Below, piece after piece: positions 60,219 through 64,000 of a stretch of 64,000 bases of DNA; the stretch's first letter is position 1, and each line of letters opens with the position of its first letter. Under the pieces are notes generated by a model. The model was not told where the DNA came from, did no database searches, and saw nothing but the letters and a program-made list of their open reading frames with translations. The DNA is from Pseudomonas sp. JQ170C. Its GTDB lineage: Bacteria > Pseudomonadota > Gammaproteobacteria > Pseudomonadales > Pseudomonadaceae. The stretch covers positions 1,754,001 through 1,818,000 of the forward strand of contig NZ_CP141608.1 of assembly GCF_035581345.1 (NCBI RefSeq). Direction: 5' to 3'. Both the position numbers and the translations under genes were made by a program.

Positions 60219-62144
60219 TTAATCGCCAGTCGCAGCTGACTGATCGGGCAGCCATCGCAGAAGAATCTGCTGCAGATCAGTTCGTTTGAACGGCTTGGCC
60301 AGGTAATCGTTCATCCCCGCGTTGAGGCAGCGTTCACGATCGCCCTGCAGGGCATTGGCCGTGAGGGCGATGATCGGCATGGCAGCGCCCTGGGGCAGCT
60401 GGCGAATGCGCCGGGTGGCCTCGTAGCCGTCGAGAATCGGCAACCGGCAATCCATCAGTGTGGCGGCAAAGCGCTGGCGGGCGACCTGGGTCACCGCCTG
60501 GGCGCCGTCCACGGCCACGCACACCTCGAAACCCAGGCTGCGCAACATGGCTTCGATCACCGTCTGGTTCACCGGGTTGTCCTCCACCAACAGGATACGT
60601 CGGCCCTGGCCTTCGTCTTCAGCGTCGTCCAGGAGGCTGGGCACGTGGGTCGAGGGCGTGTCTGCCAGCGCCAGCGGCATTTCCAGGGTAAAGGTCGAAC
60701 CCTGGCCTTCGCGGCTTTCGCCGCGCAGGGTACCGCCCATCCGTTCGGCCAGGGTGCGGGCAATCGAGAGGCCCAGGCCCGTGCCGCCATAGCGGCGGGA
60801 AATCGAGCTGTCGGCCTGCTGGAAGGCGACGAACATGGTTTCCAGACGCTTGCTGTCGATGCCGATACCGGTGTCGTGGACCGCACAGCCGAACCAGATC
60901 AACTGGCGGTCGAGCACCTGCCAGCGCGGCTCGATGCGCACACTGCCGTGCTCGGTAAACTTCAGGGCATTGCCGATCAAGTTGAGCAGGATCTGCCGGA
61001 TACGCGTCGGGTCGCCCACCACATGAAGCTGCTCCATGCCCGGCGGCAGCCGCAGGACAAGGTCCAGGCCGCGTTGGGCAGCCAGGTGCTGGAACGACTG
61101 CACGCTGCTGCCGATCAGTTCGCCCAGGTTGAAGTTGATGTGTTCCAGCTCAAGGTTGGTACGCTCGATCCGCGAGAAGTCGAGAATGTCATTGATCACC
61201 TTGAGCAGATGGCCGGTCGATTCGCTGGCCACGGCGGTGTACTCGGCCTGCTCTTCGCTCAAGGCTGTGGTTTCCAGCAATTGCAGCATGCCCAGTACGC
61301 CGTTCATGGGCGTGCGCAGCTCGTGGCTCATCATGGCCAGGAAGTCGGACTTGGCTCTGTTCGCCTGCTCGGCTTCTTCGCGGGCCTGGATCAGCTGTGA
61401 TATCGCCTGCTGCTGTTCATGGCTGGCCTGGGCCAGGGCGCAGGCGAGGTTGTTGATGTGCTGGGCCAGATGCCCCAGTTCACTGTCATCGACCACGGGC
61501 AGCGGGGCGTTGAATTCGCCTTGCTGGATGGCCTTGACCGCATGGCCCATCTCGCTGATCGGCTTGGCCAGGCTCATGGCCAGGCGCCTGGCCAACAGGA
61601 AGGTAAAGAGCAGGGCGAACAAGGCAAGGATTGCGGCCTTGATCACGATCTCTTGCTGGCGCTGGCTGAAGGCGTCGTTGGACATGCCGACGATGACCCG
61701 GCCCAGGTAGTCGTCACCAATGTTCTTCACCGGTTGCTTGGTGCTGTGCAGGAAGTCGTTTTCCAGGCGAATCTGCTGCAGGCGGATAGGGGCCTGGAAC
61801 ACTTCGACCTGCTGGGCGCGATTGGCGTGCTCATCCGGCTGCTCGACATACACCAGGATATGGTTGCTGCTGTCCTGGACCTCAAGAAAACGTACGTGCG
61901 GAATGCTCAAGGTGGCGCGCATCAGGCTTTCGAGCACTTCATCGTTTCCGGCGATCACGCCGTACTCGGAAGCTGGTGCCAGTTGGTTGGCAATCAGTTG
62001 GCCTGTGTGGTTGAGCTCCTGGCGCAGGTCCTGGATGCGCACGAAGGTGAAGAAGCTGATCAGCAGCAAGGTCAGCAACAGGGCAGGGCCCAGGCTGATG
62101 ATCTGCGTGCGGGTGTGAATGTCCCAGCTCAGGCGTCGCCTCAT
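60219..62144 (-). CDS. Hybrid sensor histidine kinase, PA1611-like
   Basis: Membrane kinase of 641 residues. TM1 is about 17-36, a periplasmic domain of sCache_4/BarA type about 37-168 follows ([16 protein letters not shown]), then TM2 about 168-186 and HAMP about 187-240. The HisKA domain has His274 in [11 protein letters not shown], the ATPase domain shows NALKFTE, DTGIGI and GGTGLGL, and the receiver has Asp565 in [11 protein letters not shown] and Lys617 in AKPF. There is no HPt domain, so a separate phosphotransfer protein is needed. Its place next to fabA matches P. aeruginosa PA1611, which acts with HptB/RetS on the Gac-Rsm pathway. It overlaps the binding-protein gene by four bases. 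Confidence 0.88.
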
Positions 62145-63040
62145 GGTCTGCGTTCTCCTTCGGCCAGGGCCAAGGCCTGCGCGGCGGCCAGCGGATCAAT
62201 GGTTTCAACCCCCAGGGCGCGGGCAACCTGCTGGTTGCCGACGACGTGGAAATGCTTCGGGTACAGGGCTCGGGGCCATTTGCCGGGTGACTGGTCGAGC
62301 AGGCGGTCCAGTACCGCCAGCCAGTCGTCCTGGTCGCTCAAGGTGCTGGCCAGGCTGCCGGCGCGGACAAACCCGGCCGTGGGGCCGATCAGCGCCATTT
62401 GCCGGGCGTAGCTGCTGAGCAACAGATTCTTGGCCGTTTTGGGGCTGTACAGTTGCGGGTCGTCGATGCCCAGCAGTACATCGCTGTTTTGCAGCAGGGT
62501 TTGCAAAGGGCGGCTGTCGCGCAAGTCGGGCCAGGCCTGGGCGACAATCTCCAGGCCCATGGGCTGGGCGGCGCGGCGCAACTCTTCAAGCAGGAACTGG
62601 CTGTGCTGGCCGTACAGCACGCCGATGCGACGGGCTTGGGGCAGCAGGTAGCGGGTCAGGCGCAACTGGCGATCCAGCGGCGGGTCGCTCCAGAGCAGGC
62701 TCAGGTAAGCCGGACGCAGTTTGCCCAGGCGTTTTTCGGCTTGCACCCGGCTTACGCGCAACGCCAGGGCGGGTGGCCCGGGGTTTTCGGTCAGGCGCCA
62801 CTCAAGGCTGGCGCTGTCGAGCAGGATCAGGCGAATGGCCGGGTCGAGCTTGGCCGGGCGGCCCAGCTCATCGACCGGCACGAAGCGTACGTTGTCGTTG
62901 GGGCGACGCTCGCGCAGCGCATGTACAAATTGCTCGACGCTGGGGCTGTCCTGGCTCGCGGTGAGCAGGATCTCACTGGCCCACGGCCCGCCCAGGGGCC
63001 ACAAGCAGATGAGCAACAGCCAGCGCCGCACAAGGCGCAT
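62141..63040 (-). CDS. Periplasmic ABC_sub_bind-type binding protein coupled to the kinase
   Basis: Secreted protein of 299 residues with a signal peptide ([17 protein letters not shown]) and a fold like PF04392 proteins, seen in [50 protein letters not shown] and a C-terminal [19 protein letters not shown]. No permease or ATPase gene is near. Its ends overlap both neighbours: TGATG with the TonB receptor gene and ATGA with the kinase gene. It is therefore a good candidate for the ligand-binding partner of the kinase, as LuxP is for LuxQ. Confidence 0.75.
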
Positions 63041-64000
63041 CAGAACGCCAACTCCGCGCTGAAGTACAGCACGTGACGGCTGTCGTAATAGTTGTCGACG
63101 TTGCTGGTGGGCTCATCGTCCAGTCGCTGCTGCAGCATGCCCGCCAGCTCGAGCTGGGTGCGGTCCCAGGTGATCTGCTTGGCAACGCGCAGGTCCACGC
63201 GCTCGAAGCGGTACTGGTTCAGCGCGTCGTCACCGTAATAGAAGAGGGCGCTGGACCAGCCCTGGCCCCAGTTGCGCAGCCAGCCGGCAGAGCCACTGTT
63301 GTGCGCGCTCATCTGGCGGTCGGCAGCGTTGCTGGCCCAGGCATCGACGTGAGCGTAGGTCAGGCGAAAGCGATCGGCCGGGCTCAGGTGCCAGTCCATC
63401 TGCGCCTCGGTGCCGCTGAAGCGGGCCTTGTTGCTGTTGCTGGCAATGTATTGGTTGTTGCGCAGCGGCTCACTGATCATGCCGGTGATTTCGTCGTAGA
63501 ACAGCTTGAGGTCAACGCTGATATCGGCGTCGGCGAAGTAACCGTTATAGCCCAGTTCTCGCGAACGCATGTGCTCCTGGTCAAGGTCGCCTGGCCCACG
63601 GGTCTTGACGAAGTAACGGGCGCTGTTCTGGCCGAACACCGTGCGGCTCAGGTTATCGACCTGATAGCTCCAGTTGACGTTGTTCTCGAACATGTCGGGG
63701 GAGCGTACCGCCTCGGAATACACCGCACGCAAGCCATGGCGCGGGGTGATCAGGTAGTTGACCGCCACGCGCGGCGTCAGCGAACTGCCGGACAGGCGGG
63801 CATCTTCAAACATCGCCCCGCCCTGGAGGATCCAGTGCTCGCTGGCGCGCCACTCCAGGTGGCCGAACAAGCGCCAGGTGCTGTCGTCCAGGCTGCCATT
63901 GAAAAAGGTTTGCGAATCGGCCCGGTCATAACGGTAATTGACACCGCTGACCAGGCGCAGGCTGTCGGACAGGCTCAGGGTGTCCTGCAGCTCCAGGTCC
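63040..64000 (-). CDS. TonB-dependent outer-membrane receptor (C-terminal part)
   Basis: The open frame runs off the right edge; about 319 C-terminal residues are visible. They show alternating aromatic beta-strands of a TonB-dependent barrel (SLRLVSGVNYRYDRADSQ, LTPRVAVNYLITPRHGLRAV, YSEAVRSPDMFENN, RLTYAHVDAWASN) and end in ELAF, the terminal-Phe signal for barrel insertion. Plug and TonB box lie outside the window. Cargo unknown. The stop shares a base with the next gene's start, so receptor, binding protein and kinase are made from one message. Confidence 0.85.
   Translation of the reverse strand, partial: DLELQDTLSLSDSLRLVSGVNYRYDRADSQTFFNGSLDDSTWRLFGHLEWRASEHWILQGGAMFEDARLSGSSLTPRVAVNYLITPRHGLRAVYSEAVRSPDMFENNVNWSYQVDNLSRTVFGQNSARYFVKTRGPGDLDQEHMRSRELGYNGYFADADISVDLKLFYDEITGMISEPLRNNQYIASNSNKARFSGTEAQMDWHLSPADRFRLTYAHVDAWASNAADRQMSAHNSGSAGWLRNWGQGWSSALFYYGDDALNQYRFERVDLRVAKQITWDRTQLELAGMLQQRLDDEPTSNVDNYYDSRHVLYFSAELAF

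Follow-up and report, generated by a model that had tools for sequence, protein, structure and literature searches.

Several bacterial sensory systems pair a soluble periplasmic binding protein (PBP) with a sensor anchored in the inner membrane, as in the pairs TorT-TorS and NspS-MbaA, the latter consisting of a binding protein and a GGDEF-EAL protein. In Bacteroidetes, the TonB receptor genes of SusC/SusD systems are linked to a hybrid two-component sensor, which itself binds the imported ligand. Here we describe a locus of Pseudomonas sp. JQ170C in which a TonB-dependent receptor, a PBP and a hybrid sensor kinase are encoded one after the other, at the end of a stretch of 64,000 nucleotides (NZ_CP141608.1, positions 1,754,001 to 1,818,000) that was analyzed as a whole and is referred to as the window. 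Comparing this locus with its relatives, we arrived at the view, which we hold to be rather probable, that the trio is a trans-envelope sensing module, in which the PBP acts as the signal receptor for sensors of the GacS/BarA superfamily and is usually loaded through TonB.

The kinase of the trio is of the type of PA1611 of P. aeruginosa, which, according to the accessible parts of the published work, phosphorylates HptB and relieves the RetS inhibition of GacS (PMC7467158, PMC7695008, PMC5595915). In those same parts, the PA1612-PA1611 operon is partly co-transcribed into fabA and called seemingly unrelated to fabAB (PMC3462791), and PA1613 is counted in a set of iron-acquisition proteins (PMC9864456). 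As far as these texts are accessible, work on PA1611 treats the kinase alone, unlike the trio view taken here, and a 2020 review, in its accessible portion, describes the GacS sensor domain as one whose ligands are still to be identified. A literature search combining TonB receptor, PBP and kinase, or ABC_sub_bind with diguanylate cyclase or kinase, or GacS/BarA with both, returned no description of such a module, most subscription papers lying outside its reach. We regard the finding as sound and as wider than first described: an apparently new variation on the binding-protein-plus-sensor theme, with a TonB receptor built in, whose usual partners are sensors of the GacS/BarA family.

At the window end, the minus strand carries, in this order, the TonB receptor (cut by the window), the PBP, the kinase, fabA and fabB. 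The C-terminal part of the receptor occupies 63040..64000 (minus strand, as for all features of the locus), and the gene runs past the window to a GTG start at position 6149 of a stretch holding the complete gene (L002:6149), chosen by position and a signal-like N-terminus; the full receptor thus measured has 702 residues and is divergent from gpsA. The PBP (62141..63040) is a protein of 299 residues with an apparent Sec signal peptide, and the kinase (60219..62144) one of 641 residues, to which Pfam assigns the plan sCache_4-HAMP-HisKA-HATPase-REC, without Hpt. The periplasmic sensor part of the kinase comprises residues 36-165 (61650..62039), with an sCache_4 match at residues 35-103 and boundaries set by inspection of the sequence and alignment. 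The receptor stop and PBP start meet in TGATG (63038..63042), with one base common to both, and the PBP gene runs 4 nt into the kinase gene at ATGA (62141..62144). These overlaps, which the original prediction for this DNA had described, were confirmed in the sequence. The kinase also stands next to fabA, in the place of PA1611, as the prediction had it, the order being the same in P. aeruginosa PA7 (L141/L081). In comparisons between loci, fabA (59492..60007) is a conserved downstream neighbor. As had also been claimed, no ABC permease, ATPase or sigma factor accompanies the trio: between gpsA and fabA there are neither permease nor ATPase genes (the rest of the genome was not searched for a permease), and neither anti-sigma nor sigma genes.

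The PBP was present in 223 of 298 sampled Pseudomonas genomes, in two of them at weak E-values only (G060, 1.7e-12; G260, 3.8e-16), which bears out the claim that receptor, PBP and kinase form a conserved module with one protein for each of three layers. Reading the loci of 20 of these 223 genomes, we found the order gpsA-receptor-PBP-kinase-fabA in 19, the remaining one (L068) having no receptor. All five genes were likewise found in each of the 20 loci that represent nine further genus codes in the Pseudomonadaceae (with a kinase devoid of REC in three), and in 77 of 80 named records, these being the best 80 of 136 relatives; of the other three, L148 is short of fabA only, its flank being short, and L205 and L208 have no receptor. 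Since the named records and the sampled genomes overlap (L141 and L081 are one strain, PA7, which has the full trio at the same place), these locus counts are not independent. Of 40 Pseudomonadaceae loci, 38 show an overlap of exactly 4 nt between the end of the PBP gene and the beginning of the kinase gene.

Genomes without the PBP present a different picture. In the 60 loci read among 75 such genomes, the kinase stands alone in 59 and not one has the receptor; a genome-wide receptor search at E<=1e-60 found it in 0 of the 75 (at most 15 candidates scored per genome, with no positive control), and a strong fabA match was present in 73. In one PBP-less Pseudomonas genome (L050), receptor, PBP and kinase are all gone between gpsA and fabA. 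This joint absence of receptor and PBP, with the kinase still in place, indicates that these two behave as one unit and that the kinase can exist alone. On a FastTree phylogeny of gpsA, fabA and the cytoplasmic part of the kinase, from which L050 and L148 were omitted for their incomplete pattern, at least six switches between the trio and lone-kinase states are needed, a count that does not separate gain from loss; a single change between the two states was thereby ruled out. A scattered trio with a usually solitary kinase, the outcome that the original prediction had set against itself, was not seen, given the PBP in 223 of 298 genomes, although the solitary kinase does hold for 59 of the 60 PBP-less loci.

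Outside the family, 369 genomes sampled across the class Gammaproteobacteria were searched with a PBP profile, which matched 78 of them, and 40 of these class loci were read. A membrane sensor lies directly downstream of the PBP in 37 of the 40, a TonB receptor directly upstream in 33, and all three genes occur in order in 31. Among the 37 loci having the sensor there, 21 show a 4-nt overlap between the PBP stop and the sensor start (the latter taken as the earliest start codon within a fixed interval), and the receptor and PBP genes touch or overlap in many loci. With 50 PF00593 matches over the cut-off in the source genome, TonB receptors make up ~1% of its genes (the gene total being an estimate), so their position directly upstream in 33 of 40 loci lies beyond chance. 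The sensors of the class loci differ among themselves, with four types of output. Ten class proteins scanned were mostly sCache_4 plus HAMP, ending in a histidine kinase (HK) followed by REC and Hpt, in PAS-GGDEF-EAL or in a bare HATPase, with the HK-REC-Hpt plan found in the trio kinases L093, L094, L095, L109 and L126 (a subset of the class kinases was scanned). In one locus, L120, the kinase gene precedes that of the PBP.

These loci speak to the possibility that three unrelated genes are merely held together, by chance or housekeeping linkage, in a stable gpsA-fabA region. The flanks are indeed conserved housekeeping genes; however, the same gene order recurs in different neighborhoods and with different sensor outputs, and the receptor and PBP go missing together with the kinase retained, so that we find such an explanation hardly credible.

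Beyond the class, 12 unfused PF04392 loci were retrieved, and all eight downstream genes scanned contained an HATPase; the full trio is present in at least L262 and L263, and L264 has a different upstream gene. Eight long PF04392 frames were retrieved in a search of 200 genomes of the phylum, and six of them, from other lineages of the phylum, were scanned (L254, L256, L257, L258, L259 and L260). Five of these join PF04392 to PAS-HK-REC and the sixth joins it to PAS-GGDEF-EAL; L259 and L260 fall under the PF04392 cut-off. The module predates PA1611, and its sensors beyond the family are mostly GacS/BarA-like. Overall, the earlier interpretation gains evolutionary evidence that the PBP and the sensor belong together, yet it had missed this older, GacS/BarA-linked module.

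The same comparisons raise an alternative in which only the PBP and the sensor form a signaling pair, the TonB receptor either taking up the same nutrient outside the signal path or having an unrelated ligand. In the class, the PBP adjoins a sensor more often (37 of 40 loci) than it adjoins a receptor (33 of 40 loci), and it is PF04392 alone that is fused to sensors. Moreover, L119, L110 and L104 have the PBP and kinase with no receptor, and in Pseudomonas L205, L208 and L068 keep the PBP without it. This alternative fits less well with the genus, where none of the 60 PBP-less loci read has the receptor and nearly every locus with the PBP does, or with the touching and overlapping receptor and PBP genes of many loci. 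We consider it unlikely, but the most serious of the competitors to a TonB-loaded module.

As to the proteins of that module, the full-length receptor has the Pfam domains Plug and TonB_dep_Rec_b-barrel above the cut-off, and the complete protein has no STN domain above the Pfam cut-off. Against PF04392 (ABC_sub_bind) the PBP scores 22.7 bits, under the gathering cut-off of 25.9 bits; many of its close relatives have a precomputed PF04392 domain, and a profile built from its relatives matches 3lkv at 5e-23. It is the sole PF04392-like match in the source genome. Its structure model, with a mean predicted local distance difference test score (pLDDT) of 93.5, has a type-I binding-protein fold, the nearest solved folds being 6hnj (CD0873), 3lkv and the L-Trp-bound 3lft, with LuxP (1jx6) also among the matches (Foldseek rank 12, E 2.7e-6). 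Arginine 124 (R124) of the PBP is invariant in 89 aligned relatives and is kept in over 90% of 30 more diverse sequences; the position is Q in 3lkv and 3lft and K in 6hni.

We then turn to the kinase, whose periplasmic part differs in conservation according to whether a PBP is encoded beside it. Residues 60-67 (EYGVIAGN in the window, 61944..61967) stand out in this contrast and are proposed as the loop contacting the PBP. In 120 rows with a PBP, where the motif reads EYGVI[SA]GN, E60, V63, I64, G66 and N67 are at 1.00 and the lowest position is at 0.91; in 59 rows without one, Y61 falls to 0.73, I64 to 0.58, G66 to 0.75 and N67 to 0.76. Kinase residue L127 behaves alike (0.97 with versus 0.31 without). 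Mean entropies with and without a PBP are 1.03 and 1.48 for the periplasmic part, 0.38 and 0.36 for HisKA, 0.88 and 0.97 for HATPase, and 0.85 and 0.86 for REC, all these motif and entropy counts being of sequences and not of independent events. The GacS of the source genome (L275), which has no PBP beside it, has lost EYGVxSGN, and E. coli BarA keeps EYG and not GN. Among sensors of the GGDEF-EAL type, two of four have the full motif and the other two differ at one position each. At a matched cytoplasmic identity of 0.80-0.85, periplasmic identity is 0.59-0.71 for lone kinases versus 0.77 and 0.91 for the two large Pseudomonas trio clades, in a comparison that omits L083, L086, L087, L170, L227, L231 and L252. 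A fixed-tree comparison of branch lengths (without L083, L086 and L087) gave a solo/trio ratio of 1.74 for the periplasmic part, with gpsA and the remaining parts of the kinase at 0.86-1.06; it was set aside because single rows inflated some clades, and its per-clade ratios overlap.

This correlation between the motif and PBP presence also bears on a further alternative, namely that the receptor and PBP are an uptake pair served by an unlinked permease, while the kinase responds to a different cue and has only the transcript in common with them. Such a division would suit the lone kinase of 59 of the 60 PBP-less loci, as it would the solved PF04392 relatives, which are transport-type, one with bound L-Trp. 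It would leave unexplained the coupling of the PBP to very different sensors and outputs, the 4-nt overlaps, the fusions and the motif correlation, and the genome has no second PF04392 match (a permease was not searched for). We therefore judge it quite improbable, more so than a signaling pair with an independent receptor.

Several observations weigh against the proposed module itself. Seven of the 40 class loci have no receptor (L104, L110, L119, L120, L123, L124 and L131), so TonB delivery cannot be obligatory, and L121 and L128 have the receptor and PBP followed by trmO where the sensor would be. (In both, fabA and a downstream fabB-like frame come after trmO.) About a quarter of the genus has a PA1611-type kinase with neither PBP nor receptor, so that the kinase must serve some other purpose or respond to some other input. 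Several of the PBP-linked class kinases have an incomplete motif (of 33, E60 is kept in 29, Y61 in 24, G66 in 26 and N67 in 25), a third trio clade (L073) has a periplasmic identity of 0.65, overlapping the lone kinases, and, since the motif is also part of the sCache_4 fold, its drift may be a general relaxation. Finally, the sensor-domain model is poor (pLDDT 55) and was not used.

The GacS/BarA part of the proposal is carried by the kinase tree. In this tree, many inner forks of which are weak, E. coli BarA and the GacS of the source genome fall within the class trio kinases, with L119 and L116 as their nearest neighbors, and the PA1611 group, including the window kinase and the P. aeruginosa kinase, forms a separate clade. 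A mixture-model tree of 40 rows, in an analysis from which 13 rows were dropped, placed GacS, BarA, L116 and L119 in one set (at 95) with the PA1611 group apart, and a constraint holding GacS and BarA together with the PA1611 group was rejected (p-AU 0.0007 in the approximately unbiased test, the group having been named after the first tree). Judged by these phylogenies, the PA1611-type window kinase is a paralogue of GacS and BarA that falls outside their clade. The source genome has two sCache_4 proteins, its GacS and the window kinase.

Clustering of the flanking genes, meant as a hint to the ligand, returned a recurring set of housekeeping genes that led us to GacS/BarA instead. Using E. 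coli queries, we found at least one of cysM, rlmD, acpS, pdxJ, recO, era and rnc in 20 of the 40 class loci and two or more in 16, with cysM in 18 and rlmD in 11. In E. coli, rlmD is the direct neighbor of barA, and acpS, pdxJ, recO and cysM are located elsewhere; cysM presumably lies beside gacS in Pseudomonas, and none of the seven genes was found within ~1.5 kb of gacS in the source genome (L275). Two further two-component-like matches adjoin the latter gene. Conversely, starting from GacS, at least 74 class genomes have a match covering the sensor (the best matches listed, not a census): the PBP lies directly upstream on the same strand in 39 and near in another order in 2, 31 have no PBP match and 2 a weak match elsewhere. 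In the 30 genomes best matching GacS, the PBP is present in 15.

A bolder reading, which we think slightly less probable than its opposite, is that a TonB receptor and a PF04392-type PBP were the ancestral input of GacS/BarA kinases, lost by Pseudomonas GacS and E. coli BarA, with the paralogue PA1611 keeping a set of its own. If so, the ligand of PA1612-type proteins could provide a lead to the chemical class of a TonB-imported Gac signal.

Gene order, gene overlaps, the joint absence of receptor and PBP, the kinship of the class kinases with GacS/BarA, fusions and motif correlation are read directly from the sequences, whereas ligand uptake, ligand binding, PBP-sensor contact and its effect, be it activating or inhibiting, are inferred. 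The TonB receptor would import a scarce ligand into the periplasm, where a dedicated PBP, with no transporter at the locus, would bind it. The loaded PBP may then alter the activity of the inner-membrane sensor by docking on its sCache_4 domain, the EYGVxSGN loop being the probable site. In the Pseudomonadaceae, the module goes with the paralogue PA1611, through which its output in Pseudomonas would pass into the HptB/RetS/Gac network; in many other Gammaproteobacteria, its partner is the GacS/BarA-like kinase or, at times, a protein of the GGDEF-EAL type.

Were the PBP indeed the ligand-binding part, the question of the Gac signal would shift from the screening of membrane kinases to the ligand of a soluble, well-folded protein, with the TonB receptor as a second handle on the Gac-family signal. 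A TonB-imported compound could then set the decision between motile and sessile life in many Gram-negatives, and one input module would be plugged into both kinases and cyclic di-GMP enzymes. The recurrence of the trio in distantly related bacteria would thus offer a concrete route to the unknown GacS/BarA signal.

Of the other features of the window, an amidohydrolase-like frame (54842-55849, plus strand) and a frame resembling a methyl-accepting chemotaxis protein (56521-58146, plus strand) were judged by eye from their translations. A riboswitch scan of 14 loci returned nothing but two tRNAs, and a promoter and terminator scan gave 1 promoter-like site versus 0.9 expected and 0 terminators versus 4.2 expected. 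Separately, a root-attachment screen of P. protegens Pf-5 has gacS and gacA on top in its Table 1, which also contains PFL_4192 (a substrate-binding protein) and PFL_1740 (a TonB receptor), according to the accessible part of that paper (PMC13390462). Neither PFL_4192 nor PFL_1740 could be mapped to the trio from that part, and since their locus tags are far apart, at most one of them could belong to it.

How, then, does the trio compare with known systems? One counterpart is PA1611 with PA1612 and PA1613, the same full trio standing in the same place in P. aeruginosa PA7; that the trio is called PA1613-PA1612-PA1611 in PAO1 is based on PA7 plus the papers, and gpsA we take to be PA1614. With GacS and BarA the window kinase has in common the sCache_4-HAMP-HisKA-HATPase-REC plan, and class trio kinases group with both. 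Yet E. coli barA is flanked by rlmD and gudD, with no PBP or receptor, and the GacS of the source genome has neither a PBP of its own, the only one lying beside the PA1611-type kinase, nor the motif; the window kinase, for its part, has no Hpt, is therefore not of the tripartite HK-REC-Hpt type and stands outside their clade.

FecA-FecR-FecI surface signaling resembles the trio in linking a TonB receptor gene to signaling genes, but the trio receptor has no STN domain and no anti-sigma or sigma gene lies between gpsA and fabA. Unlike SusC/SusD-linked sensors, the trio interposes a PF04392-type protein and has a different sensor domain, and unlike ABC binding proteins of the TrpX/CD0873 type (PF04392), its PBP has no permease or ATPase at the locus and carries R124 in place of Q or K. 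A close parallel in design is LuxP-LuxQ, in which a soluble type-I binding protein signals to a sensor in the inner membrane, as the PBP would here, and the two are likewise encoded together; the trio differs in having a PF04392-like PBP, an sCache_4 sensor and, in most loci, a TonB receptor as the first gene of the operon.

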